Below, in pieces: positions 43,064-59,710 of a stretch of 64,000 nucleotides of DNA. Numbering within the stretch: the stretch's first letter is position 1; each line of letters begins with the position of its first letter. The notes beneath the pieces are model-generated. The model was not told the DNA's origin, made no database searches, and saw only the letters and a program-made list of their open reading frames with translations. The stretch comes from Phycisphaerae bacterium. Lineage in GTDB: Bacteria > Planctomycetota > Phycisphaerae > UBA1845 > UTPLA1. Location of the stretch: the NCBI GenBank assembly GCA_019636475.1, contig JAHBXN010000005.1, forward strand, positions 62,001-126,000, in the 5' to 3' direction. The position numbers were made by a program, and so were the translations under genes.

Positions 43064-45841
43064 TCATGGCTGGCTGAGCAGCAGATCCACAAAGGGCGGC
43101 ACGTCTTCGTGATCGCATCGACCGTCACAGTTGATGTCGGCCGTCGGGAAGAACAGGAAGTTGAGATTGCCGACCGTCGCCTGCACAAAAATGCGAACGT
43201 CTGTTCCGTTGATGACGCCATCCGAATTCAGGTCTCCCGCGCCCAGACCGGCTCCCACCACCGACTGAATACCGGTGTAGGTTTTGTGGCGGGTCTTGAT
43301 GACACCATCCGGAGCTTCCTCGATCGCAACAATATCCAGGCGGTGGTTGCCGCGGGCGAGGCTGCCAAGAGACAACGTGAAATCCTCGTAGTTGCGGGCT
43401 GCCTGTCCCGCTCCACCGGCCAGTGCCGCACCCACAAAATCAAAAGTCTCAAGCCGATCGACATACATGAAGACGCGGTCGATCGCGGGGCTTGAAGCCT
43501 GGGCGACGAATGCAGCAGGCAGTGCCGTGATGTCGGCATTGCAGTCATTTGAGGGCGAGACCAGCGTGAAATCCGGGTCCTCGATATCCACATAAATGAC
43601 GATTCGGAATTCGCCGAAAAGCGGGCTGTCGGTCGGATTGCGATGCCGGAAAGCACGCACCGTGATATAGTGATAGCCCTCTCCCAGCGCCGCCGCATTG
43701 ATCGTCTGCCGATACACGCCGGTCCCGCCGGTATAGCGGGGAGAATTTCCCGTAACGAAGTTTTCAAATCCGTAGCGCGGATCGGTGTGCAACGTGTTGC
43801 CCGGTCCGAAATCCACCTGCGAGTCGCCGTTGTAATCCACGAACCCCTGATCGATTCGGAACACCGCCTCGTCATCCGTATTCGGATCGAGCGGGTCGGT
43901 GTGGGCGGTCTGCAGGAGAATGTCAAACGTTTCCGAGCGAACGACTGTCACGGGATTCAGCCGCCGTCGATATGCCGGAATCCCGACTCCCTGTGGCGGC
44001 GCGACCGTAGTCGTCGCATTGTCTATCGAAAGCGTTCCTGTCGGAACGGCCGGTCCATAGATTACATATCCACGACCGTGGAATACGCCGTTCGCATTGC
44101 GATTGCGCGGCACATTGAGAAACTGTCCGTTCGGCGCGTCGCCATGTATGAGGCGGCCGTCTGCGCCGACGATAAGGAGGTTGGGAATCTGATTGTTCGG
44201 ATCGACAATGGGATCGTTCGCATTGCCGGTCAGTTCATGCAGGCGTGTGCCCGCGGGAAAAGCGGTTTGAACGTTTCTCACATCATGGCCGTTTGATTCC
44301 AGGTCATTAAGCCCGACGAGCACATTGTCCGGACCGCTTGGCGTCCTGCGCGTGAAGGCCAGGACATCATTCTGCGACGGATTGACCGCATCCGTGTTGT
44401 TGATCGGAATGAAATAGCCGCGGGCGTACTGATTGTGAATCTTGATGAGCGTCGTGATTTCATTGCTGCCGAGTCCCAGCGCGTCGTCGCGCCCGTTTGC
44501 ACGCGGAAAATTCGCCTGATTCGTACCGAATTGAAGCGCGTTGTGATAGACGATTGGAATTCCGGTGCGCATCAGCGTGTACGCCTGCACGACGGTGTCG
44601 TTCTCATCATCAGGAATGGTGTTGTCATGGCTGTTGACGTGATGGACGCCCAGACTGCCGTTGTTGAATCCGTCATCCGACAGGTCCACCGACGCGGACA
44701 ACACGTTCGACCAGGACCCGGCGCCGTCCGCGTTGACGAGATCACGAAGCTGCCCCGCTTCGTTAAGGTCCAGCGCGTCGCGATTGCCGAATTCGGCGCC
44801 CTGCGCCGGCCACCCGCCGCCGTTGATCGACCGGCGGATCCAGTTCCGCATCGTGTTGTTGCCTTCGACGGCTTCGACAAAAGAGAACGGCGTCTTGACC
44901 AGCCCGTCAAAATCGACCCATCGCTGATAGACCACCGAATCCCAGAGATTGTCCCAGAACCATGTCTGAATGTGCTTGGCGGCATCCAGGCGAAAACCGT
45001 CCACCTTCAGCACTTCCAGGTAATACTGCGTTGAGCGCAGCAGAAGATCGTTGGCATTCTCGAGCACGGCATCGCCCGCAAGAGGATTCTCAAGATTGTA
45101 CGGGAAGAACGTGAAGTTCAGCGTGCCGGGGTTGCGACTCGTCCCCGGATTCACCACGGCCTGGCCCGGCAGATCGAGATCGGGGTAAAACGCCGCATTG
45201 CTCGCCTTCGGGATGTTGTAAAGTGTCCCGGCGGGAATGTTATCCGGATGACCGGGAGTGACTGGATGACGAATGTACGAGTAGTTCTTCTGCTGCGCGA
45301 TGTCGATCAGCCCCACGAGTCGACCATCATAAAGATTGTAACAGGGGTCGGCCGGTTGCTGCGACTGGGGGCACCCGCCGGAATAGACGTTGAAATCGCC
45401 ATACAAATCGCCCGGACGACTTAGAACGAAGCCGGGGTAGCCGCCTTGTGTCACAAATGTGGCATCATTGTGATCGCGGAAGCCGTTGTGATTCATAATC
45501 AGGTCAACATAGACACGATTGGCCGCGCGGTGAAATTCGTCAACCATGATACGGAAGTCAGACTCGGTCCCGTAGTGAGTCGGACTTCCGGCAGTGCCAA
45601 GGTCGAATCGATCAAAAAGGTCGTAGCCCGCGCTGAACGTGCCGCCTTCGCCCTTCTGAATCGGCGGGAGCCAGACACATTCATACCCCGCGATGAACAC
45701 GTCCGGCATGCGATGCCTGATCACGCTCCATTCCGCCTCGAAGTACTGAAGCATGACCGGCTCCGGCTCGTCGCCAAAAGTTGCGGAAGCCGGGATTGAG
45801 CAAACCGCCATGCACAGGCTCAACAAGATCGATTGTCGCAT
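43064..45841 (-). CDS. Secreted GH13 alpha-amylase with dockerin-like tail
   Basis: Extracellular or periplasmic alpha-amylase-family glycoside hydrolase of 925 residues acting on alpha-1,4-glucans. The signal peptide is MRQSILLSLCMAVCSIPASA. The barrel carries region I (DLIMNHNG), D286 (GFRLDAAKH, nucleophile), E323 (FVEAVEG, acid/base) and D406 (NSHDN). After about residue 600 come beta-rich parts I cannot name, and the last 60 residues (GDLNSDGVINGTDV...ADINCDGRCDHEDV) form a dockerin-like Ca-binding doublet. ATG 45841 has GAGGGG 7 nt upstream, preferred over earlier in-frame ATGs. It ends close to ftsY, converging. Confidence 0.9.
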   Translation of the reverse strand: MRQSILLSLCMAVCSIPASATFGDEPEPVMLQYFEAEWSVIRHRMPDVFIAGYECVWLPPIQKGEGGTFSAGYDLFDRFDLGTAGSPTHYGTESDFRIMVDEFHRAANRVYVDLIMNHNGFRDHNDATFVTQGGYPGFVLSRPGDLYGDFNVYSGGCPQSQQPADPCYNLYDGRLVGLIDIAQQKNYSYIRHPVTPGHPDNIPAGTLYNIPKASNAAFYPDLDLPGQAVVNPGTSRNPGTLNFTFFPYNLENPLAGDAVLENANDLLLRSTQYYLEVLKVDGFRLDAAKHIQTWFWDNLWDSVVYQRWVDFDGLVKTPFSFVEAVEGNNTMRNWIRRSINGGGWPAQGAEFGNRDALDLNEAGQLRDLVNADGAGSWSNVLSASVDLSDDGFNNGSLGVHHVNSHDNTIPDDENDTVVQAYTLMRTGIPIVYHNALQFGTNQANFPRANGRDDALGLGSNEITTLIKIHNQYARGYFIPINNTDAVNPSQNDVLAFTRRTPSGPDNVLVGLNDLESNGHDVRNVQTAFPAGTRLHELTGNANDPIVDPNNQIPNLLIVGADGRLIHGDAPNGQFLNVPRNRNANGVFHGRGYVIYGPAVPTGTLSIDNATTTVAPPQGVGIPAYRRRLNPVTVVRSETFDILLQTAHTDPLDPNTDDEAVFRIDQGFVDYNGDSQVDFGPGNTLHTDPRYGFENFVTGNSPRYTGGTGVYRQTINAAALGEGYHYITVRAFRHRNPTDSPLFGEFRIVIYVDIEDPDFTLVSPSNDCNADITALPAAFVAQASSPAIDRVFMYVDRLETFDFVGAALAGGAGQAARNYEDFTLSLGSLARGNHRLDIVAIEEAPDGVIKTRHKTYTGIQSVVGAGLGAGDLNSDGVINGTDVRIFVQATVGNLNFLFFPTADINCDGRCDHEDVPPFVDLLLSQP

Positions 45842-45969
45842 CAAACGTCCCCTCATGTCGTTTGTCATTTCTCTAATAAGGAAGCGAGTACGCAACTGGC
45901 CGCTGATCGCGTCGGGTCCCAGCCGCGCTGCTCGAACTGCGAGGGCAGACAACCCCGTGTATCAACGCA

Positions 45970-46024: not shown

Positions 46025-49000
46025 TCAGTTCAGCAAGGCGTTGACGAAAGCCTGAATGTCGTTGCCGTTGATGCCCGCCGGTGGATTCGGATTGATGTCC
46101 GCTTTGAAGAGCGGACAGACATCCGAGTTCGTACCGAGCAGCACCTGAACAAAGACGTTGACGTCTGTCAGATTCACCTGCCCGTCACCATTGATGTCGG
46201 CGGGATGCGCGCCACAGAAGGCCGATTCCTCCAACTCGTAGGCCAGGCACTGCTCGCCCGCGAAGTTGGTCAGATTGATGGCCGGGCCAAATCCGAGGTT
46301 GCATACTTCGCCGCCCAACCCCGGCAGAAACTGATTGGATGCGAATCCTGTATTTCCCGTCACCAGTGCGAGGACTCGAATCTCCGGACCTCCGCCGGGA
46401 AGAATCTCGGCAATACCCAGATCGGCCAGCGAGATGCTCACTTCCATTCCCGAATCCACGTTGCCGGCATCGGCGTCGGATCCACCCAGACAATTGCAGG
46501 GCGAGCCGGCCTGTGTGCAGCCCGTTACACCGCCGACATTGTCGTTCCAGAATGCGACCAGCGCACAATTGTCGTTGTTGTATCGCGGATTCGGTCCCTG
46601 GTTGCCGAACCCGGTGTAGTTGTCCTGGGTCGCGACCGCCGGGCCCATATGCGACGGAATGTCCGTGCCGAGATACTGCGAAGGTGTCGAATACGTTCCC
46701 GAAATGACATACGTCTGCGGATTCAGCAACGCCGACACATCGACCGGATCGCCGGCCGTACTGACATTGGGAATGTTGTCACCGATGAACGCCGGCAGTG
46801 CCTGGTTGCTCCAATATCCCCCGCCGCTGGTGACGAACGCCGCAAGTTGAACAGTCGCTCCGTTTCCGCCCGGCGCGGCAAGCCCCAGCGAAGCGCGCGA
46901 AACTGCGAACTGATAGCCCGCCGTGGCGCTCGGTGCAAGCGATGCCTGCGTGTTATCGCCGGAATTGCCGTTGACCCCCGCGACATTGTCGTTGTTTGCG
47001 GCGTAGGTGTTGGATGCGATGGCGCCGTTCGTAACGCGGGTGATGTCGATCGGCGTGCTGGCCGTGTTATTCAGATTAACCAGCTTGGCCGTCTGGAACG
47101 AGTTGCCCGACCGCGTGGCCACGATCGCCCAGTCGGGATTGAAGCCGATCGGTAAGGCATCGTTCGTCAGACCCGTCAGCGCGCCGGGCCAGCCGGACGA
47201 CCCTGACGTATTGATCGGGTTGGGCCCGGTTCCGACTGTCTCCAGAAGAATGACGATCGCGTTGCCGTTGCCTTCAAGGTTGCCGGTCAGACCGATGTAG
47301 AAATTGTTGGCGTCGTTCTGAAGGAACAGTTGATTCAGCTCACTGCCCGCATTGTCGCCCGCCGCGCGAAGCACGCCAGAAAGCGAATTCATATTCTGAA
47401 AACCGAGGATTCGCGACGTATTCAACTGGAGATCGGACAACTCGACCGCATACGACCCATCGCCAAACGTGGCGACTGAAATGGCGTAGTCCGCTTCGAG
47501 GCAGCTGTCGAGAACCGCGCCGTTCAGGCCCGTGCCGGGGCCGTTGCCGCCGACGGACTGAGGCGGTGTCGCGTTGCCGGCCAGCGTCGTTTCGCCGCCG
47601 GGCTTCGTGTCGAGCAGCACCACGTAGGCATTGCCGTTCAACTCGAGGTTGCCGGAGATGGCCAGCTTCAGGCGATCGGCCGTATTGCTGAGCCAGAGTT
47701 GGTTCATCTCGCTGCCGGCAGTGTACTGAACACCCGTCGGCGCCTGCGCGTCGCCGAAACAGCTGTAATTGTTCTGCACGGCCAGCGCATCCCCCGGATA
47801 CTGCGCCGGAATATTGGTACCCGGCGGATTCGCGACGGTGAAGTTCGGGGCGCCATCAAATGAAAGCTCGATGGGATCAACCGTGATGTACTCGGCCGTG
47901 GGGAAATCAGCCGCGATCGACACCGGCGGATCGGAATCCGTTCGGAACCCGAGGCAATCGACGCCGCCGCCGACATCTTCCCGAAGATCCAGCGACCATG
48001 AATTCAGTGTTCCCGAGTTGCCGGTCACGTTGTCTGTCACGAACAGGATCCAGTCTCCGGCCGTCGGATCGACGTCGTTGAAAGTCAACAGCGAGTTGGT
48101 CGCCGGATTGTTGACATCGAATACTCCGGCTCCCGGAGCAACCCACGATGTCAGCGACGTGCCATCGTGAGCGAAAGTCGTCGCCATGTTCGCGCCGGAC
48201 TGATTGCCGTTCCACAGTCGAACGGTTCGGTTCGAAGCGGGATTGAAGAGGTCGATGGTCAGTTCCTCAACCGCCGGGTGCGTGATGTTGACGGTCACTT
48301 CCAGGCCGGTGACGCGTTCGAGTCCCGCGCTCGTGGCATTCGTGGGTGTTAATGTGCTGGCAACCGTGGCCGGCGTGTCACCGACACCGGCATCGTCGAT
48401 GACCGTCGGCGTGTTGACCGCGTCGGTCGACAGTCGGACTTCGCCGGTTGTCTTGCGAAGCGGAGGAAGCCACTGGTTGCTCATGAATCCGGAGCCGCTG
48501 ATTACGGCCGCAACAATCTTGATCCCGGGATTTGCACCGATGTTGTATCCGAGACCGAAGCCCGGAGTCTGGCCCGTGCCGGGCGCTCCGTTGAGGTTGA
48601 GCGAGAACTGTACGCCGTTGGCGGCGGTGACCGCATTCAACGTCTGCTGGACAGGATCGTCGCCGGCAATGTTATTGACGCCACCGATGTTCTGAAGATT
48701 GACGCCGAACGCGTTCACGTCAGGATCGAGATGTCGCGCGCCGCTCGTGGAGAATTCCATTAAAACGACATCCGAAAAACCAAACGTCAAATCCTGCACG
48801 GTTGCGCGATGCTGTCCGTTTTGTCTCCAGTACTGAATGGCATATCGCGGGAAGAAGCCGTCGTGCAACTCCAATTCACCCAGTCCGCTGAATGCGCCGG
48901 AACCGCCCGTGTAGAACGATCCGTCTCCGAGCGGATTCGCGCCGAATCCGTCGCCGATATCCACGAAGATCACGATCGTATTGTTGAAGGTGTCATTGAG

Positions 49001-50107
49001 CGGCACGTTCCCGGATACACCGATGTACAGTTTCTGCGCATCGCTGGCGACATAGATTTCGTCGATCTCGGATCCGGGAGACAGCGAGGGCGAAAATGCC
49101 GCGGCATTGCCGAAACAGGTGTAGTTGTTCTGAGTCGAAAGCGCCGAGCCATACTTGCTCGGAATATTGACGCCATCTCGCAATCCGGAGGGCGCCGTGC
49201 CATCCGGATCGAGGAAGTAAGTCACAAACTGGTTGCTCGGAAACAGGAGTTGGAAATTGACGTTATTGGGCGGGTTGCCCGCCGGATCGTGCACGCCGAT
49301 GCATGCGACTCCGCCGCCGACGTTGTTGGAGGTGGCCTTCAGTGGCGGAAGCGACTGATTGCTGATGAAACCCGTCCCGTTCACGAGGATCGCATGGACG
49401 CGGATGTCATCGGAGAACTGGAGCGGCGTCGAGTAACCGAGCAGATTCAGCGGAATTGCGAACTCGAATCCGTTCGTCGCGGTCGCAGCGTTCAACTGCT
49501 GCTGAGCCGGATCGCTCGCGGGCTCGTTGTTCACGCCGAGGAGATTTGAATTGTCCACGGCAAACTGTGTGCCCTGCGACAATGCCTGGCCGATGTCATT
49601 CGGATTGGTCACATTGTGAAGCAGCGCGGACTGAACGCCAAGATCATTCCACAGTGCAATCGCATAATTCGGACCGAAGTCGAGGGTGACACCATCCATC
49701 TTCCGAAGCGCTTCCGATCCCGTCATGTTCTGGGTATTCAGCACCGGATTGATGTTCGATCCGTCTGTCTCGATGAAGATCAGTACGGTATTCTCGAGGA
49801 CATCGCTGGGCGTCAGGTTGCCGGTCACGCCGATATACAGCGTGTTGGCGTCGTTCCGGACAAAAAGCTGATTCAGCTCATTGCCCGTCGTCGGATTCGG
49901 AAGAATCGCAGCGCGATTGCCAAACCCGGTCGCATTGTTCTGAATCGTGGTGGTGGCCCCGCTGTACTTCGTTTGCAGGCTCTGACCGTCCACGTCTTCC
50001 AATGTCTCACAATCCACGCTGCCCGCGCGGACGAAGCTCAATCCCATACACAAAATCGATACCGCATGTACCACTGCAAGAACTGCGAACTGACGACGAT
50101 ATGACAC
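46025..50107 (-). CDS. Large secreted repeat protein with P-domain and dockerin-like tail
   Basis: Unrecognised 1360-residue exported protein. A signal peptide (about 1-28) is followed by at least four copies of a beta-type module with the phrase G-x-E-[LIM]-[ND]-[QE]-[LI]-[FYW] ... LYIGV[ST]GN, at about residues 75, 344, 796 and 921. Between copies 2 and 3 (about 572-711) lies a proprotein-convertase-type P-domain (VTVNITHPAVEELTIDLF, then WSLDLRE). The last 60 residues (ADINGDGQVNLTDV...GINGNDI) are a dockerin-like doublet. Start GTG 50107 is supported by AGGAGGT. It lies next to the amylase on the same strand, so a role in glucan capture or display is an inference. Few Cys; no catalytic motif seen. 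Confidence 0.82.
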   Translation of the reverse strand: MSYRRQFAVLAVVHAVSILCMGLSFVRAGSVDCETLEDVDGQSLQTKYSGATTTIQNNATGFGNRAAILPNPTTGNELNQLFVRNDANTLYIGVTGNLTPSDVLENTVLIFIETDGSNINPVLNTQNMTGSEALRKMDGVTLDFGPNYAIALWNDLGVQSALLHNVTNPNDIGQALSQGTQFAVDNSNLLGVNNEPASDPAQQQLNAATATNGFEFAIPLNLLGYSTPLQFSDDIRVHAILVNGTGFISNQSLPPLKATSNNVGGGVACIGVHDPAGNPPNNVNFQLLFPSNQFVTYFLDPDGTAPSGLRDGVNIPSKYGSALSTQNNYTCFGNAAAFSPSLSPGSEIDEIYVASDAQKLYIGVSGNVPLNDTFNNTIVIFVDIGDGFGANPLGDGSFYTGGSGAFSGLGELELHDGFFPRYAIQYWRQNGQHRATVQDLTFGFSDVVLMEFSTSGARHLDPDVNAFGVNLQNIGGVNNIAGDDPVQQTLNAVTAANGVQFSLNLNGAPGTGQTPGFGLGYNIGANPGIKIVAAVISGSGFMSNQWLPPLRKTTGEVRLSTDAVNTPTVIDDAGVGDTPATVASTLTPTNATSAGLERVTGLEVTVNITHPAVEELTIDLFNPASNRTVRLWNGNQSGANMATTFAHDGTSLTSWVAPGAGVFDVNNPATNSLLTFNDVDPTAGDWILFVTDNVTGNSGTLNSWSLDLREDVGGGVDCLGFRTDSDPPVSIAADFPTAEYITVDPIELSFDGAPNFTVANPPGTNIPAQYPGDALAVQNNYSCFGDAQAPTGVQYTAGSEMNQLWLSNTADRLKLAISGNLELNGNAYVVLLDTKPGGETTLAGNATPPQSVGGNGPGTGLNGAVLDSCLEADYAISVATFGDGSYAVELSDLQLNTSRILGFQNMNSLSGVLRAAGDNAGSELNQLFLQNDANNFYIGLTGNLEGNGNAIVILLETVGTGPNPINTSGSSGWPGALTGLTNDALPIGFNPDWAIVATRSGNSFQTAKLVNLNNTASTPIDITRVTNGAIASNTYAANNDNVAGVNGNSGDNTQASLAPSATAGYQFAVSRASLGLAAPGGNGATVQLAAFVTSGGGYWSNQALPAFIGDNIPNVSTAGDPVDVSALLNPQTYVISGTYSTPSQYLGTDIPSHMGPAVATQDNYTGFGNQGPNPRYNNDNCALVAFWNDNVGGVTGCTQAGSPCNCLGGSDADAGNVDSGMEVSISLADLGIAEILPGGGPEIRVLALVTGNTGFASNQFLPGLGGEVCNLGFGPAINLTNFAGEQCLAYELEESAFCGAHPADINGDGQVNLTDVNVFVQVLLGTNSDVCPLFKADINPNPPAGINGNDIQAFVNALLN

Positions 50108-50502
50108 CTTCCACCTCCTGATGATTCCTGTCCAGGTGCCGGCCGCACATGTCGGACGACCGGCTGACAAATTCGTTTCTCGATGACGCCTCCACCTGAG
50201 AAAAGCTCTCAGGTGGCACGCCCTTTGGCCATCTCTTTCGCGGCCGAGCCGAGCCATTCCCGCGCCTCGCGAAAGCGGATCGGACTTCGCCTGTGCGGCG
50301 ACTGTTACGGCGGACGACTCCTCGTAGAACAGGGACTGTCGAAAACGCCCCCCCGGACACTGACCGGCGATTCTCCCTTGTGAGCATCGCCTGATTGATT
50401 CTATCAGAGGGTCATTTCAACCCCGCTGACATCGCCCGCCGGGAAACTTTCCCAAGCCCTGCATCACACCGCGAAACACCCGATTATCGGCCGCATGGGA
50501 AT
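50108..50502. other. 395-base leader region of the large secreted protein
   Basis: It separates the pseudopilin gene from the large repeat protein on the same strand. It contains the Shine-Dalgarno AGGAGGT and a perfect hairpin (50192-50216). No open frame is convincing. I looked for c-di-GMP, SAM and cobalamin riboswitch signatures and did not find a full one. Confidence 0.45.
50192..50216 (-). promoter_or_regulatory. Perfect 10-bp hairpin in the 5' leader
   Basis: Arms CCACCTGAGA (50192-50201) and TCTCAGGTGG (50207-50216) around a 5-base loop, 85 nt before the GTG of the repeat-protein gene. No T-run follows on the minus strand. It could stabilise the leader, end transcripts of the pseudopilin gene, or bind a regulator. 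Confidence 0.5.
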
Positions 50503-51552: not shown

Positions 51553-51804
51553 CGATCAAGAAAAACCCGGCAGAATCCGTGCATACCCCTGTAACTCACA
51601 ATGGTTATGCCGGGCACGGGCTCCGCAAATGCCAATGGCGATCGTCCACTTAATGAGGATGTTAAACCGCAGCAATTCGGTGCGGAATCTTTCACGCGCA
51701 CAGCGCCAACGCCGAAAATAGCGAGTTACAGTATGATAGAACGCACTGAGAAACTTTCCGTCGATGCAGACTGGATCGGCGGTTCTAAACCTGGATTGTC
51801 GCGA

Positions 51805-52842
51805 ATGGCCAAACGCAAAGCCGTCAGTATCAAGGACGTCGCACGTGAGAGCGGTTCGTCCTTAACCACGGTATCTCTGGTGCTTAACAAACGGGACCGC
51901 CGGATCAGCGTAGAAACCCGACAGCGGATTCTGGAGGCGGTCGATCGACTGGGCTATCGCCCGAGCCGACTGGCACAGGGACTCCAATCTCAGAAATCGG
52001 GTTTCCTGGCGATCCTCGTTCCGCAACTTCGGCACGCCTTCGCCGACGCCTACTTCGGCGAGCTTATCAGCGCGATCCAGGAGACCGCACGCCAATCCGA
52101 ATACAAAGTCATTCTTGAAGTTGCGGATGACGCTTACATCGCCGCCAAAGAGTACCTGGAGCTCTTCCGGCGCCATTTCATCGACGGCCTGCTCTGCCTC
52201 GGAATCACCAATAGAGACACCTACCTGCGAGATTTTGTTTCTGAGCAGTTCCCCGTAATCCTCGTCAACAACTACGTCTCGGACATCAGGCTCAATCACG
52301 TCGGCTGCGACTACGAAGCCGCGGGACGCCTCGCCGGCGAACACCTCATAAAACTGGGCCATCGAAAGGTCGGCCTCATTCACGGTGCCGCCGAGGTCCA
52401 GACGACGCACGATCTGCGGCGTGGCTTCGAAAGCGCGCTCAGAAAGGCAGGCGCAAAACTGCCACAATCCTGCGTGCATGACGGACTCTTCACCGAAGAA
52501 GGTGGCGCGGCGGCAGCTGTCGCACTGATAAAACGCGAACCGGGTTTGACCGCCCTCTTCGCCGGAAATGACAAAATGGCCATCGGCGCGCTGGCCGGCA
52601 TCAAAAGCCTCGGACTCCGGGTGCCGGAGGACGTAAGTGTCATCGGCTGCGATGACATTCATCAGGGCGCGTTCTGCGATCCGCCGCTGACAACAATTCA
52701 CACCCCGCTCTTTGAGCTGGGCCGCCAGGCTTGCAGCCGCCTGTTCGAGCTGATCGACGGCCGCATCGCCAGCGTGACAGAGACCTGCCGAGTCAGCGTT
52801 GTCGTCCGCCAATCCTGCGCCGCGCCGCGCAGCTCGCAATAG
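51805..52842 (+). CDS. LacI-family transcriptional regulator
   Basis: Sugar-responsive repressor or activator of 345 residues. The N-terminal helix-turn-helix starts VSIKDVARESGSSLTTVSLVLN, with the hinge YRPSRLAQGLQ. The periplasmic-binding-protein-like part spans about 60-335 (FLAILVPQLRHAFADAYFGEL, GRLAGEHLIKLGHRKVGLIHG, LTALFAGNDKMAIGAL). By position it should govern the GH13 and transporter genes that follow at 52898-59710, with maltodextrin or similar as signal. I take ATG 51805; earlier ATGs at 51733 and 51601 are in frame and would add an unrelated polar extension. The amylase gene begins 55 nt later. Confidence 0.88.
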   Translation: MAKRKAVSIKDVARESGSSLTTVSLVLNKRDRRISVETRQRILEAVDRLGYRPSRLAQGLQSQKSGFLAILVPQLRHAFADAYFGELISAIQETARQSEYKVILEVADDAYIAAKEYLELFRRHFIDGLLCLGITNRDTYLRDFVSEQFPVILVNNYVSDIRLNHVGCDYEAAGRLAGEHLIKLGHRKVGLIHGAAEVQTTHDLRRGFESALRKAGAKLPQSCVHDGLFTEEGGAAAAVALIKREPGLTALFAGNDKMAIGALAGIKSLGLRVPEDVSVIGCDDIHQGAFCDPPLTTIHTPLFELGRQACSRLFELIDGRIASVTETCRVSVVVRQSCAAPRSSQ

Positions 52843-52897: not shown

Positions 52898-55800
52898 ATG
52901 GGAATTGCAATTCTCTGGAACACGTTTTCAACGCGTTGTTTGCGTGCGATATCGGCGCGCTGGACCCTTGCCACCGCCCTGCTTCTTGGACTCGGCGTTT
53001 CGGCGGTCGCACGCGCCGATTCGGACGATCGCATCCATCTGGCGGGCTCGTTCAACAACTGGGCCACCTCCGACGATTCCTTCAAGCTCAACCACGTCGG
53101 AGATCGTTATGAGTTGCAGCGATACATGGGCTGCGGCCTGTACGAATTCAAATTCGTCTTCAATGGGACATGGCAACGACACCTCGGCGACGCCGGCGGC
53201 GAAAACCGCCTGACACAGCCGGGAGGCAACATTCACCTCGTTTGTCCCCAATCAGGCGAGTATCTGATCTGGCTTGACGTCGACAAGATGAAGTGGGGAA
53301 TGGAGCATCGTCCGGCGTCTCGGCCGTACGCCATCATCACGATCGAGCGTGCAAGCTGCGACCACTACATTCTCGATCCGTCGCAGAGCATTCCAACCGC
53401 AGGCAAGACCCTCCTCTATCGTTGGGGCAGCGGTTCAAGCGACCTGGGGCCCAATGATTGGTACATCGAACGGAAGGAATACACCGATCATCTCTTCCTC
53501 AATGCCCCGGGACAGCTCGAAATTCAACTCGTCGTCACCGATGGCGAACTCGCGGACACGGCCGTCGTGAACGGCACCTTCGGCAATGGATTTCAGTTGT
53601 CCGCGCGAACAAACAAAACCGCATCGGCTGGAATGCATCTCGTCGGCGAGGACCTGTGGGCCGCCCCCTACACCGCTGACCACGATGGAACTGAAATCTT
53701 CATCGTCACCGGCACGGGCCGTGGCACCGACACGAGCCCGACATCCTTCACGGTCAGAAAAGACCGGACGTACTACGTACTCTACGACAACGCCCTTCGA
53801 ACAATCAGCATCGAGACTTCAGGCTATCACTACTTCCTGTTTGATCCGAAAAGCGACGATCGTCTGCCCAAAGACCTGGTGCTGGAACGGGTGGACATCG
53901 TCGGCAGTTTCAACAACTGGAAAGCGGGAGTGACCCCGACGCGGCGGATCCACCCCGCGAAGTATGAAGCTCTGGTGCCGTTGCCCGAGGGACTCCACCA
54001 TTACAAGTTCGCCGTCAACGGCGCGATCTTCCTCGATGACAAGACGGCCGATCCGAAGCTCAGCACCCCGGACAACCACGGCGGCCGGAACAGCGGCCTG
54101 TTGATCGGCGATGACGCAAAGCAGTTCGGCGAGGCAAAGCCCGATCACATTACCGCCGAAGCGATCAGACATTCGACGCGCCGGCAGGAGTACTTCGCCC
54201 CCTATTCGCGATCCGATGCCCTTGTCACGCTTCGGACGCTCGCAAACGACGTGGAGTCGGCAAGCCTGTGGACGGACGACTCGAACGATCCGATTCCGAT
54301 GGCTCGCACTGAATCGCGTCTTGGATTTGACTACTGGCAGGCGACCGTCAACGCGCCGAGCGCCAGGCCGAACTACCGATTTGAAGTCGTCGACGGCAAT
54401 ACGAGCCGCTGGATGGACGCCGATGGCGTGCACGAAAAGCGAGCTGAGGCAAGTCACCCATTCACTGCGGAAATCAAGATGAGTTTCGAAACGCCGGATT
54501 GGGCTCGAAATGCGGTCTGGTACCAGGTCTTCCCGGAACGATTTCGCAACGGAACGCCGGACAACGATCCGCCGAGAACCGTGCCGTGGACGCACAAATG
54601 GCACGCGCCTTACAAAGCGCCTTCGGACGTCAAATCCGGTAGTCCGGCAGATTTTGAAGAAACCGGCGGCTTCTTTAATTACATATTTGATCGTCGGTAT
54701 GGCGGCGATCTCCAGGGCGTTCGGGAGAAGCTCGGCTACCTCCGCGATCTCGGCATCAACGCCATCTACCTCAATCCCATCTTCCTTGCCGAGTCCATGC
54801 ACAAGTACGACGCGTCGGATTACCGGCACATTGACGACTTCTTCGGCGTGAAGGACAGCCTGAAGAAAATCAAAGGCGAAACGATCGATCCCGCTACATG
54901 GCAATGGTCGGAGAGCGACAAGGTTTTCCTCGAATTTCTGAACATCGCGCATCAAATGGGATTCAAGGTCATCATCGACGGCGTATTTAATCACGTTGGA
55001 CGGGATTTCTGGGCCTTCAAGGATGTACTGGAACACGGACGCGAATCGAAATTCGCGGGGTGGTTCGATATCGTCAGTTGGGACCCGTTTCACTACAAGG
55101 CCTGGGACGGGGACGATGGCTCGCTGCCCCGATTGAAGCACGACGATGCACTCGGGCTGGCCGCACCGGTGCGTGAACATCTCTTCGCTGTCACGCGGCG
55201 ATGGATGGATCCCAACGGCGACGGCGATCCATCCGACGGGATCGACGGCTGGCGGCTGGACGTGGCCGCGGACATCAACGCGAATTTCTGGAAGGACTGG
55301 CGAAAGCTGGTTAAATCAATTAACCCAGACGCATACATCGTGGCGGAGCTTTGGGAAGAGTCGAAGCCATGGTTGGATGGACGCACCTTCGATGCGGTGA
55401 TGAACTATCCCTTCGCGGTCCGCGCGCAGCAGTTCTTCGTGAACAAAGCCAGGGCGACGAAGCCGAGCGAATTCGATCAGGCCCTCAAGGACATGCTCTC
55501 CTGGTATCAACCCCAGGTGAACTATGTGCTCCAGAATCTCTATGACAGCCACGATACCGATCGGCTCGCATCGATGTTCATGAACCCGGACCTGGAGTAC
55601 GACAAATCGAACCGATTGCAGGATAACGGGCCGAACTACAACGAAGCCAAGCCGACGCCCGACTGTTATCACCGAATGAAGTCGATGGTCACCTTTCAGA
55701 TGACGTTCCTCGGTGCGCCGATGGTGTATTACGGCGACGAGGTCGGCATGTACGGCGCCGACGATCCATCGGATCGCAAACCAATGCTCTGGGATGATCT

Positions 55801-56236
55801 GCCGCCGAACGACGACCCGGAGGAACGAATCGAAAAAGACGTTCTTGAACACTTTCGGCGGCTCATTGCGATCCGCAATACATTTCCGGCGTTGCAGACC
55901 GGCACGTTCCGCTCCATCACATGCCGTGACGATCTCGGGGTCTATGGGTTTTGCCGGACTTCAGGCAGGGAATCGGTGGTTGTCGTGTTCAATAACAGCG
56001 ACAAGGCCTATCGGCTCAACCTGCCGTCGCCATGGCCCAACGGTTCCAGAATCGTAAGACTGGATGATCCGAATCAGACCGAGCTGATCATGCCCGCGAA
56101 GGATGAACCAACCGCTCGACCGAGGGTGCGTCCAAAAGCGGACCTCGAAACAGATTTGAAGGTGGAGAACGGGCTGTTGCACGGAATGATGCTCGAGCCC
56201 CGATCGGCCGCGGTCTTCGCGGTGGTCGGATCGTGA
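52898..56236 (+). CDS. Secreted multidomain GH13 enzyme (alpha-amylase/neopullulanase-like) with CBM48-like modules
   Basis: Exported 1112-residue alpha-glucan hydrolase. A long signal peptide (about 1-40, ending VARA) precedes a module with IHLAGSFNNWA near residue 46 and a second with VDIVGSFNNWK near 333; SFNNW is typical of CBM48/CBM20-type starch-binding or isoamylase N domains. The GH13 barrel starts near 530 (AVWYQVFPERFRNG) with DGVFNHVG, D788 (GWRLDVAAD, nucleophile), E817 (VAELWEE, acid/base) and D886 (DSHDTDR). The architecture is near neopullulanase/cyclomaltodextrinase, here secreted. AGGAG precedes the ATG. First enzyme gene after the regulator, likely start of the uptake operon. 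Confidence 0.92.
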   Translation: MGIAILWNTFSTRCLRAISARWTLATALLLGLGVSAVARADSDDRIHLAGSFNNWATSDDSFKLNHVGDRYELQRYMGCGLYEFKFVFNGTWQRHLGDAGGENRLTQPGGNIHLVCPQSGEYLIWLDVDKMKWGMEHRPASRPYAIITIERASCDHYILDPSQSIPTAGKTLLYRWGSGSSDLGPNDWYIERKEYTDHLFLNAPGQLEIQLVVTDGELADTAVVNGTFGNGFQLSARTNKTASAGMHLVGEDLWAAPYTADHDGTEIFIVTGTGRGTDTSPTSFTVRKDRTYYVLYDNALRTISIETSGYHYFLFDPKSDDRLPKDLVLERVDIVGSFNNWKAGVTPTRRIHPAKYEALVPLPEGLHHYKFAVNGAIFLDDKTADPKLSTPDNHGGRNSGLLIGDDAKQFGEAKPDHITAEAIRHSTRRQEYFAPYSRSDALVTLRTLANDVESASLWTDDSNDPIPMARTESRLGFDYWQATVNAPSARPNYRFEVVDGNTSRWMDADGVHEKRAEASHPFTAEIKMSFETPDWARNAVWYQVFPERFRNGTPDNDPPRTVPWTHKWHAPYKAPSDVKSGSPADFEETGGFFNYIFDRRYGGDLQGVREKLGYLRDLGINAIYLNPIFLAESMHKYDASDYRHIDDFFGVKDSLKKIKGETIDPATWQWSESDKVFLEFLNIAHQMGFKVIIDGVFNHVGRDFWAFKDVLEHGRESKFAGWFDIVSWDPFHYKAWDGDDGSLPRLKHDDALGLAAPVREHLFAVTRRWMDPNGDGDPSDGIDGWRLDVAADINANFWKDWRKLVKSINPDAYIVAELWEESKPWLDGRTFDAVMNYPFAVRAQQFFVNKARATKPSEFDQALKDMLSWYQPQVNYVLQNLYDSHDTDRLASMFMNPDLEYDKSNRLQDNGPNYNEAKPTPDCYHRMKSMVTFQMTFLGAPMVYYGDEVGMYGADDPSDRKPMLWDDLPPNDDPEERIEKDVLEHFRRLIAIRNTFPALQTGTFRSITCRDDLGVYGFCRTSGRESVVVVFNNSDKAYRLNLPSPWPNGSRIVRLDDPNQTELIMPAKDEPTARPRVRPKADLETDLKVENGLLHGMMLEPRSAAVFAVVGS

Positions 56237-56380: not shown

Positions 56381-58777
56381 TTGCGATCCAGGAACCTGCT
56401 CATTCAATTTGCCAAGGCGGCTCGGCTGATCGTCGGGGCTGTGGCCGCCGCGATTTTGCTGTTCTCGTTTCTATGGGTGTTCGCCTATCGACCGATACGC
56501 GACGGCGTGCAGCGTGCGGACGAAATCGTCATCTCACTGATTCACTGGGGTGAAGATGATGAGGATCGAATCGTTGCCGATCTTGTCAAGGATTTTCTTG
56601 AACAGCCCGGCAACGAGAAAATTCGCGTACGCCGAACAAATCTCGGTCAGGCCGCAGCCGTCAATACCAAACTGCATGCGATGTTCGCTGCCGGCGAACC
56701 GCCCGATGTGTTCTATCTCGGATACGAAAAGGTCGCCGATCTCGCATCCAAAGACCTGCTCGCGGATATCGACCGCCTCATCGCCGATGATGTGGCCGCG
56801 GGCCGCGAAACGGTCGATCTGTCGGGCTATTTTCTGAATGTTGTCGATTGCTTCCGTTTCGATCGCGAGACACAGCGAATGGGCAACCGACGCGGTCGCC
56901 TCGTCGCACTGCCCAAGGATTTCACACCGGCCGGCTTCTATTACAACAAGACGCTTCTCGCCCGCGCAGGCGTGGCGGAGCCGCCGATTGCGGGCTGGAC
57001 GTGGGAGGAGTTCATAACCGCGTCGCGAGAAGTCGCCAGATTGCCCGGTTGCTACGGTGCCGATTTTGTGACGTGGGAGACGATGGTCCGGCTGTTCGCA
57101 TGGAACCACGGCGTGGACTTCCTGTCGAATGACTTCAGCGAACACTACCTGAACGATCCGAAGCTACATGCCGTACTCGCGACACTCCAAGGTTGGTTTC
57201 ACAATGAGAAACGCACCTTGTTTTCCGCCAAGACTCAGCTCGAGACCGGCATGGAACCGTTTCTGGCGGGCAACGTCGGATTCGCGGGACCACTCGGCCG
57301 TTGGAAAGTGCCCACATACCGTCTGATTCGCAGCTTCGAGTGGGACTACGCCCCCCTGCCGCACTCTCAGGGATTGCCCGCCCGCAACGGCATCTTCACG
57401 GCCGCATGGGGCATCGCCAACAGCAGCCCTCGCAAGGCCGAGGCGTGGCGATTTGTCAAACACATGAACAGCCGCCCGGCGCAGGAGCGGATGTGCCGCG
57501 CCGGCCTCGCTTTGTCGGTTATCAAGGAAGTGTCGAATGGTCCGGATTTCATCGACGAAGGCCGACCCCCGCGAAACTATCGCGCCTATCTGGACGCCGC
57601 GGAATACGCGGAGCCGATCAACTGGCCGGCTGATCCGGCCTATCTCCACCAGCTGCGCGTACGACTGGAGAACATCTTCAAGCAAAATGCTGATATCCCG
57701 GCCAAGCTGGCCGAGGTCGACAGGGAGTGGCGACAGATCGAACGCAAGCACGCCAACGAAGTTCATTACACCCGGGTGAACTGGGCCGGTGTCATCGGAT
57801 GGATTGTCGGACCCATCGGCGCATTCGCCGTCGGCGGGACGGTGTATTGGTGGGTGCGGCGCCCGCGCGGTCAGGCGATGCGGGAGGAACTCGCCGGTAA
57901 CATCATGGTCAGCCCATGGGTGATCGGTCTGATGGCATTCACAGCCTTCCCAATCGTCATGTCATTCCTGCTGTCCTTCATGCGATGGAGCGGCATGGCC
58001 TCGCTGGACACGGCAAAATGGGTTGGATTCGACAACTTTGTGTCGATGTGGGAGTTCGACCCGACCTTTGTTCGCGCGCTCTATGTCACGACGGTGTACG
58101 CGCTGCTTGCCGTGCCGAGCGGCCAGATCGCAGCGCTTCTCGCCGCGATGCTGATGAACCATGAATGGAAAGGAATCGGCGCATTCCGAGCGATCTGGTA
58201 TCTACCGAGTGTCCTCGCCGGAGTCGGCATGGCGGTCATGTGGAAGTGGGTGTTCCACCACGAACACGGGCTGATGAACGACGTGCTATCGAAAATCCTG
58301 CCGGCCTCTGTCGCACCGCCGGCGTGGTTTGAGAAAGACGCAGACCGCTGGGGCGTGCCCGCGTTCGCCATCGTCAATCTGTGGTCGATTGGCGGCACCA
58401 TGATGATTTATCTGGCGGGGCTCAAAGGAATTTCAAAGGAACTGTACGAGGCGGCTGCAATCGACGGCGCGACCGGATGGCGTCGATTCCTGCATGTCAC
58501 CCTGCCGATGCTCAGCCCGGTTATTTTCTTTAACGTCATCATCGCGATAATCGCTTCGTTTCAGGTCTTCACGCAGGCATTCATCATGACGGGCGGGGGA
58601 CCGGGCAACGCAACCCGATTCTATGTGATTCAGCTCTACAACCAGGCTTTTGACCTGCATGACATGGGGTATGCCAGTGCCATGGCATGGCTCCTGTTAC
58701 TAATCGTCCTCGGCCTGACGATCGTCGTCATGCGAGGCAGCAGGCGATTCGTGTACTACGAAGCACTGAAAGGCTGA
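56381..58777 (+). CDS. Fusion of ABC solute-binding protein and MalF-type permease
   Basis: One 798-residue chain joins two proteins that are normally separate. Residues 17-42 are a membrane helix. About 45-450 resemble a family-1 (MalE-like) sugar-binding protein (ISLIHWGEDDEDRIVADLV, GEPPDVFYLGYEK, FLAGNVGFAGPLGRW). A second helix at about 466-488 is followed by an Arg-rich cytoplasmic loop, and about 505-798 is a MalF-like permease with the EAA loop EAAAIDGATGWRRFLHVTLPM near 689, the site that meets the ATPase. Topology is consistent: binding domain outside, permease loops inside. Start TTG 56381 with AGAGGC upstream. Between the GH13 gene and malG-type gene; no ATPase gene. Confidence 0.88.
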   Translation: MRSRNLLIQFAKAARLIVGAVAAAILLFSFLWVFAYRPIRDGVQRADEIVISLIHWGEDDEDRIVADLVKDFLEQPGNEKIRVRRTNLGQAAAVNTKLHAMFAAGEPPDVFYLGYEKVADLASKDLLADIDRLIADDVAAGRETVDLSGYFLNVVDCFRFDRETQRMGNRRGRLVALPKDFTPAGFYYNKTLLARAGVAEPPIAGWTWEEFITASREVARLPGCYGADFVTWETMVRLFAWNHGVDFLSNDFSEHYLNDPKLHAVLATLQGWFHNEKRTLFSAKTQLETGMEPFLAGNVGFAGPLGRWKVPTYRLIRSFEWDYAPLPHSQGLPARNGIFTAAWGIANSSPRKAEAWRFVKHMNSRPAQERMCRAGLALSVIKEVSNGPDFIDEGRPPRNYRAYLDAAEYAEPINWPADPAYLHQLRVRLENIFKQNADIPAKLAEVDREWRQIERKHANEVHYTRVNWAGVIGWIVGPIGAFAVGGTVYWWVRRPRGQAMREELAGNIMVSPWVIGLMAFTAFPIVMSFLLSFMRWSGMASLDTAKWVGFDNFVSMWEFDPTFVRALYVTTVYALLAVPSGQIAALLAAMLMNHEWKGIGAFRAIWYLPSVLAGVGMAVMWKWVFHHEHGLMNDVLSKILPASVAPPAWFEKDADRWGVPAFAIVNLWSIGGTMMIYLAGLKGISKELYEAAAIDGATGWRRFLHVTLPMLSPVIFFNVIIAIIASFQVFTQAFIMTGGGPGNATRFYVIQLYNQAFDLHDMGYASAMAWLLLLIVLGLTIVVMRGSRRFVYYEALKG

Positions 58778-58804
58778 TGCACCGTTCGATTGGCGGCGGT
58801 TCGC

Positions 58805-59710
58805 ATGAGTTCGCCGCGGCAGGAGCAACCGGGAAGGGAGCAGCTGGCCGAAATGATGTCGTCTCGCATCCAGAAAAGCCTGACTCTATTCGTCCTGCTC
58901 GCGGGATCCGTCGCGATGATGTTCCCTTTCTGGTGGATGATCGTCACCAGTCTTTCAACCGGCGAGGAAGCGAGTCAGTCAGCGTCCGGATTCCGACTCT
59001 GGCCCAGCGCCGCCCAATGGGCAAATTATCCCGCTGCCCTGAGCAGGATGGGAAGCCGCGAATGGATCGGATTCCTCGACGCCATGTCGAATACCGTCGT
59101 CATAACGACGCTGGTCGTCATCGGACAGGTCTTGTCGTGCAGTCTGGTGGGATACGCATTCGCGAGGGTGCGGTTTCGCGGCCGGGACGCCCTCTTCATC
59201 GTGATGATCGCGACGATGATGTTGCCGGCTCAGGTCACGATGATCCCGCTTTTCATTCTCTTCCGCTGGTTCGGATGGATTGACACGTTCCTGCCCCTTG
59301 TCGTACCCGCGTTTTTCGGGAGCCCCTTTTTCATTTTCATGTTTAGGCAGTTTTTCGCCCAGGTGCCCGAAGCGCTGGTCGAAGCAGCCCGGGTTGACGG
59401 CTGCGGTTCTTTTCGCATCTGGTGGCAGATCATGCTGCCCATCTGCAAGCCTGTCATCGCAATCACCGCCATTTTCACGTTCATCGGCGCTTGGAACGAT
59501 TTTCTCGGGCCCCTGATTTACCTCCAAAGTGAGGAAAAAATGACGCTGGCCGTCGCACTGAACTCATTCCAGAACCAGTACGGCGACTTTCGCGATGCGA
59601 ATTACCTGATGGCGGCGAGCATTGTCACAATGGTGCCCTGCATCGCGCTTTTTATCGTGGCTCAGAAGCAATTCATCAGCGGCCTGGCCCTCGGCGGCGT
59701 CAAGGGATAA
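58805..59710 (+). CDS. MalG-type ABC sugar transporter permease
   Basis: Second membrane subunit of the carbohydrate importer, 301 residues from ATG 58805. It has six helices and the EAA loop EAARVDGCGSFRIWWQIMLP about 100 residues from the end. MMFPFWWMIVTSLS near the start and the end GLALGGVKG are typical of MalG/LacG permeases. It would pair with the permease half of the fusion protein upstream, 28 nt away. The start is uncertain: TTG 58790 and ATG 58853 are also in frame, the latter with GGGAG 12 nt before it. An ATPase must come from elsewhere in the genome. Confidence 0.9.
   Translation: MSSPRQEQPGREQLAEMMSSRIQKSLTLFVLLAGSVAMMFPFWWMIVTSLSTGEEASQSASGFRLWPSAAQWANYPAALSRMGSREWIGFLDAMSNTVVITTLVVIGQVLSCSLVGYAFARVRFRGRDALFIVMIATMMLPAQVTMIPLFILFRWFGWIDTFLPLVVPAFFGSPFFIFMFRQFFAQVPEALVEAARVDGCGSFRIWWQIMLPICKPVIAITAIFTFIGAWNDFLGPLIYLQSEEKMTLAVALNSFQNQYGDFRDANYLMAASIVTMVPCIALFIVAQKQFISGLALGGVKG

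Follow-up and report, generated by a model that had tools for sequence, protein, structure and literature searches.

The window analysed here, the whole stretch of 64,000 nucleotides, carries on its forward strand four consecutive genes in the order LacI regulator, GH13 enzyme, a gene joining a sugar-binding receptor to a permease in one chain (hereinafter the fusion), and a MalG-type permease. The features of this cluster, with the residue numbers of the fusion protein where they apply, are:

51601..52842, forward strand: LacI-family regulator, 413 aa (Pfam).
52898..56236, forward strand: GH13 enzyme, 1112 aa, with glycogen-binding (AMPK1_CBM) and alpha-amylase N (Alpha-amylase_N) domains and an Alpha-amylase match at 9.4e-50.
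56381..58777, forward strand: fusion gene, 798 aa, sugar-binding domain plus MalF-type permease (frame, Pfam, alignment, model, fold comparison).
56426..56482, forward strand: N-terminal membrane anchor, residues 16–34 (hydropathy; helix 2–43 in the model).
56519..57751, forward strand: MalE-type (family 1/8) sugar-binding domain, residues 47–457 (Pfam; VIA-align to 5f7v_A).
57782..57859, forward strand: connector membrane helix, residues 468–493, leading from the binding domain to the permease core (model, hydropathy; W468 in 23/23 homologues).
57881..58774, forward strand: MalF-type permease core, residues 501–798, with the EAA loop at 690–696 (BPD_transp_1; PDB matches to MalF and other sugar permeases).
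58790..59710, forward strand: MalG-type partner permease, 306 aa (BPD_transp_1, 2.8e-23; homologue in 18/19 relatives' loci).

By eye, the GH13 enzyme bears an export signal and the MalG-type permease an EAA loop; the latter protein is also matched by the GlcU, UgpE and MalG models, below their own cut-offs. The LacI protein carries a sugar-binding domain of its own. Two reverse-strand frames precede the cluster: one of 1410 aa (46025–50257), for which Pfam at 1e-6 yields a proprotein convertase P-domain and nothing else, and, about 6 kb before the regulator, enzyme and transporter genes, one of 962 aa (43064–45952) with a weak alpha-amylase match (1.1e-7).

The fusion gene begins with a TTG codon, preceded 8 bases upstream by the motif AGAGG (by eye), and runs for 798 codons without an internal stop. 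Pfam searches with its product recovered SBP_bac_1 (residues 67–369, 1.5e-22), SBP_bac_8 (68–391) and BPD_transp_1 (584–785, 1.6e-13), all above cut-off, which places the receptor half in family 1/8 (PF01547 and PF13416). The closest PDB sequences to this half are those of an arabino-oligosaccharide-binding protein, and those to the permease half are SugA, AlgM1 and MalF. Hydropathy analysis identified helices at 16–34 and 470–488 on either side of the binding domain and, at a looser threshold, 5 of the 6 helices expected in the permease. An end-to-end alignment of the protein with 22 relatives, each a single frame, showed the EAA-loop residues Y689, E690, A691, A692, I694, D695 and G696, as well as W468, to be invariant in all 23 rows, while the N-terminal and connector helices are each retained in 22/23 at the same hydropathy threshold. 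The picture drawn in the initial annotation, of a MalE-like domain held between two membrane helices and continuing into a MalF-like permease with an intact EAA loop and consistent topology in both halves, is thereby borne out. We also considered a lipoprotein anchor and rejected it for want of a lipobox, as the first 60 residues of the source protein contain no cysteine; 2/23 alignment rows have one in that stretch.

An AlphaFold2 model of the fusion built with 23 homologues (mean pLDDT 79.9, pTM 0.74) yielded a binding domain (residues 47–457) that matched the cycloalternan-binding protein Lmo0181 (5f7v_A; Z 40.6, rmsd 2.5, 384 residues aligned by VIA-align) and the arabino-oligosaccharide-binding protein AbnE (Z 37.9); in most rows this fold comparison spans residues 44–459, and the assignment of the permease half comes from its sequence matches. 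In this model, residue 43 closes the first helix and residue 49 opens the first strand; at the far side of the binding domain, its final helix runs to 460 and the connector follows from 468. The distance from residue 450 to W468 is 18 residues in 19/23 homologues, the other four ranging from 15 to 21. These boundaries, together with the near-constant spacing, suggest that the receptor domain is held by short linkers at both ends. A connector helix would be needed in such a chain, given that the receptor is predicted to lie outside the membrane and the permease core to begin inside it.

The genes of the cluster are conserved to differing degrees among relatives. Across 19 relatives' loci, homologues of the MalG-type permease occur in 18, relatives of the GH13 enzyme in 15 (one at 26% identity) and the LacI regulator in seven, these seven being all the loci in the set that come from other genomes of the source's family. 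Correspondingly, the complete order LacI-GH13-fusion-MalG is kept in 7/7 long own-family loci, which derive from 7 of the 9 other family genomes with the full fusion.

In agreement with the initial annotation, we observed no ATPase gene among the open reading frames near the fusion (by eye). A search of the source genome with OB_MalK (PF17912) retrieved a single match, in a gene on another contig that combines ABC_tran, OB_MalK and TOBE_2:

L037:6212-7516 (source contig C18), reverse strand: the sole MalK-type ATPase found, beside nusA, infB and rbfA (by eye).

Homologues of this ATPase at 57% identity or more occur in 2/19 relatives' loci: in L042 a 61% homologue lies directly after the fusion and MalG, an arrangement that supports pairing of the MalK-type ATPase with these two proteins, and in L056 a 57% homologue lies within the locus. 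PF01547 matches the source genome once, in the fusion itself, and we recovered no second family-1 receptor in this genome, which is 95% complete and might therefore be missing another. PF00528 matches it four times: in the fusion, in MalG, in an SBP_bac_3 fusion and in a short frame after a ProV-like ATPase, leaving one CUT1-type permease pair found. The SBP_bac_3 fusion (L034:1477-3297, reverse strand, contig C15) is a 606-aa chain of SBP_bac_3 and BPD_transp_1 that adjoins an ABC ATPase. The short frame, at L035:698-1860 (forward strand, contig C7), has 144 codons and comes after the ATPase, which looks ProV-like by eye; its permease match covers only profile positions 67–182 of 184, and it is perhaps a truncated permease.

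Taken together, the family-1/8 receptor, the two different permeases with EAA loops and the MalK-type ATPase with OB/TOBE domains are features of the CUT1 class, and we judge it about 85% probable, from sequence analysis, that the fusion serves a CUT1 (maltodextrin-type) ABC importer as receptor and MalF-type subunit in one, with the unlinked MalK-type ATPase powering this importer. In such a system, the N-terminal helix would hold the binding domain on the outer side of the inner membrane, where the exported GH13 enzyme would cut alpha-glucan and the binding domain would close on a fragment so released. The connector helix would then cross back, bringing the start of the permease core to the cytoplasmic side; this core and the neighbouring MalG-type permease would form the pore, and two MalK-type ATPase copies would provide the docking surface for both EAA loops. 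With the receptor being part of the permease chain, there would be one receptor per transporter, and it would probably never leave the transporter. The altered stoichiometry predicted in the initial annotation holds to the extent that a 1:1 ratio of receptor to permease follows from the sequence; the kinetics of capture may differ as well. Uptake of glucans cut close to the cell surface, as also proposed there, may be the role of the system, and the predicted export of the GH13 enzyme speaks for it.

Transport of di- or oligosaccharides is suggested by the GH13 neighbour, and the assignment of maltodextrin in particular draws on the gene neighbourhood, because the PDB matches of the receptor half bind several sugars (arabino-oligosaccharide, cycloalternan and trehalose/maltose). 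The same build could accordingly serve a different sugar, for example a non-starch oligosaccharide or an alpha-glucan of cyclic or branched form, and the presence of cycloalternan-binding Lmo0181 and arabino-oligosaccharide-binding AbnE among the closest folds favors this alternative. However, the GH13 enzyme of the cluster, with its glycogen-binding domain, points to alpha-1,4/1,6-glucans, and we regard a different substrate as unlikely, while still a serious contender.

A further alternative is that the chain is cut at the junction, or that translation also initiates internally to give the permease, leaving the receptor free or singly anchored. Of the whole alignment, the junction shows the lowest conservation, and it evolves under weaker constraint than the two domains: in the two closest pairs, dN/dS is 0.14 and 0.22 for the junction (residues 441–500, 60 codons each) and 0.05–0.08 for the domains (the N-terminal helix showing 0.35–0.53), and in one of two more distant pairs the junction reaches 0.32. 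Nevertheless, the values of 0.14 and 0.22 indicate that the junction behaves as translated, constrained sequence. Met500 offers a possible start for the permease, but methionine is found at this position in just 2/23 rows, the source protein included, and we accordingly rejected an internal start there. Moreover, either helix is kept in nearly every row, as described above, and a receptor freed from the permease would retain the N-terminal helix. Processing or internal initiation hence appears quite improbable. We give still less credence to the chain being mainly a sugar sensor (a transceptor) in place of an importer: a LacI regulator does lie in the same cluster, but it has its own sugar-binding domain, and the invariant EAA loop, the MalG homologues in nearly all relatives' loci and the presence of an ATPase are those of a transporter.

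The distribution of the fusion was sampled in three overlapping sets of genomes. A single stop-free match covering at least 718 of the 798 residues was detected in 23/61 close genomes (the source and 60 relatives) and, with no more than three candidates from each genome scored, in 50/298 genomes of the class, the source included; under the same limit, a single stop-free match to at least 713 of 792 profile positions was detected in 13/294 genomes of the phylum. The fusion is not universal, as 38/61 close genomes lack a single match of such length. Within the source's own family, 10/17 genomes have the full fusion and seven lack a single full-length match, one of these being cut by a contig end. 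Four own-family genomes without the source-type fusion (L178, L179, L180 and L181) encode a different, longer receptor-permease chain in frames of 927–980 codons. At L167:1422-3804 the permease half is spread over two frames, indicating a broken gene or a contig error, and this locus was left out of the intact count. Pfam searches on further chains recovered both receptor and permease domains in 34/34; in 18 more distant long chains the receptor domain was present in 18/18 and the permease domain in 17/18. A hydrophobic segment between receptor and permease core is seen in 21/21 further fused chains of a second group (see below) and other distant lines. Among the matches listed from searches with two profiles, 6/80 named loci hold both domains in one frame: three from Planctomycetota (43–44% identity) and one each from Poribacteria, Omnitrophota and Chlamydiota. 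By its nearest named relatives, the source DNA belongs to Planctomycetota.

The fusion is thus real, conserved and, to judge from its sequence, functional-looking. Receptor and permease ordinarily occupy separate genes in this order (74/80 named loci, among the matches listed, have no one frame holding both domains; Sinorhizobium meliloti pSymB has receptor and permease as two genes 12 bases apart), but that the source gene is an artifact of sequencing or assembly is of nearly negligible probability and was rejected, given the single long matches in independent genomes of the class and phylum and the constraint on the junction. Neither of the two outcomes on which the initial annotation would have been withdrawn, a stop and start lost between about residues 450 and 500 and absence of the fusion from all close relatives, is what we found.

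To trace the origin of these chains, we used trees of both halves. In the permease-domain tree (181 rows, 78 fused and 103 single), the source protein falls in a fused clade of 61 rows (SH-aLRT 96) and another 15 rows make up a second such clade (99), with at least four changes of state. The receptor-domain tree (130 domains) likewise contains a large fused group with the source protein and a separate fused group, the second group consisting of the same 15 loci in both trees. In these labels, L110, L119 and L030 count as single (permease frame without a receptor match, the receptor being in another frame), L138, a contig-edge fragment with both matches, counts as fused, and L023, cut by a contig end, counts as single in the receptor tree. 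The distant fused chains of Omnitrophota (L114:2850-5120) and Chlamydiota (L115:9899-12223) sit on long branches in both trees and were left out of both of the following tests. A single clade of fused permeases was not rejected (p-AU 0.37; 28 fused of 70 hand-picked rows), whereas a single clade of fused receptor halves was rejected (p-AU 2.4e-5; 24 fused of 47 hand-picked rows), the latter test concerning a group picked after the first tree was seen, with long branches, and omitting L025, L055, L176 and L177, all of which are in the permease test. Three of these (L055, L176 and L177) belong to the source protein's clade by their permease domains but not by their receptor domains, which could reflect receptor exchange or misplacement. 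One origin of all fusions is hence disfavored by the receptor halves and not by the permease halves, and more than one joining is likely, if short of proven, on the strength of these sequence comparisons. A search of plasmids returned 2628 records, all below 60% identity; the 15 of these listed are all from Sinorhizobium, three of them annotated, as two genes, and 12 without annotation. In S. meliloti pSymB, an ATPase, a receptor and two permease genes occur in succession, the 12 bases lying between the receptor and the first permease. Loss of a stop in such a gene order could have been the start of a fusion, with the gain of a connector helix also required.

Several known importers provide a frame for this system. 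In E. coli MalEFGK2, MalE is free in the periplasm and MalF has a large outer domain of its own. The source system resembles it in combining a receptor, MalF/MalG permeases and a MalK-type ATPase, with the permease half matching MalF, but its receptor lies within the chain, ahead of the permease core. GlnPQ-like importers also place receptor domains before the permease; the GlnPQ receptors, however, are SBP_bac_3 domains, whereas Pfam detects only SBP_bac_1/8 and BPD_transp_1 in the source protein. Shared MsmX-type ATPases are MalK-type ATPases encoded apart from the permeases, as is the ATPase here, though sharing is not implied, since only one CUT1-type permease pair was found.

Linkage of receptor domains to the permease in one chain is described, in the available text, for GlnPQ and other amino-acid importers (PMC8025302). 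The accessible parts of two further articles report transport competence for a MalE-MalF fusion (PMC7756565) and include fusion to the permease in the states that a receptor may take, free receptors usually being in excess over the transporter (PMC9045158). More directly, a maltose/maltodextrin ABC transporter in which one MalE domain is joined to MalF has been described (Licht et al., 2019, Res Microbiol 170:1–12, pmid 30193862). As far as that description goes, the two systems are alike in having one CUT1 receptor domain and a MalF-type subunit in one chain, a likeness of description and not of sequence, and they differ in that the source fusion belongs to Planctomycetota and has an unlinked ATPase. 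The organism of the published system is reportedly Bdellovibrio bacteriovorus. The novelty implied in the initial annotation does not stand, as this kind of fusion is already in print. Our literature search, at the level of titles and abstracts, found no report of such a fusion in Planctomycetota, and the available parts of PMC11212667, PMC13342039 and PMC6461901 do not mention any comparable fusion of receptor and permease. What is possibly new is the spread and age of the fusion in Planctomycetota, the signs of more than one joining and the short tether of near-constant length.

The wide spread and possible repeated origin lift this fusion slightly above the routine. For annotation, a pipeline that names such a chain after one domain would overlook its second function. 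A system that nature has long maintained with precisely one receptor on a tether would furnish a test case for the importance of receptor excess, and the many planctomycete sequences constitute natural variants of tether and domain pairing. We propose, tentatively and at a little under even odds, that in Planctomycetota and some neighboring phyla sugar receptors were joined to a MalF-type permease more than once and long kept so, every joining including a connector helix and, in the source's fusion family, short linkers of near-constant length. With no free family-1 receptor found in the source genome, the usual excess of receptor would have been given up, and a receptor fixed at its transporter would be favored by how these bacteria feed or by their envelope.
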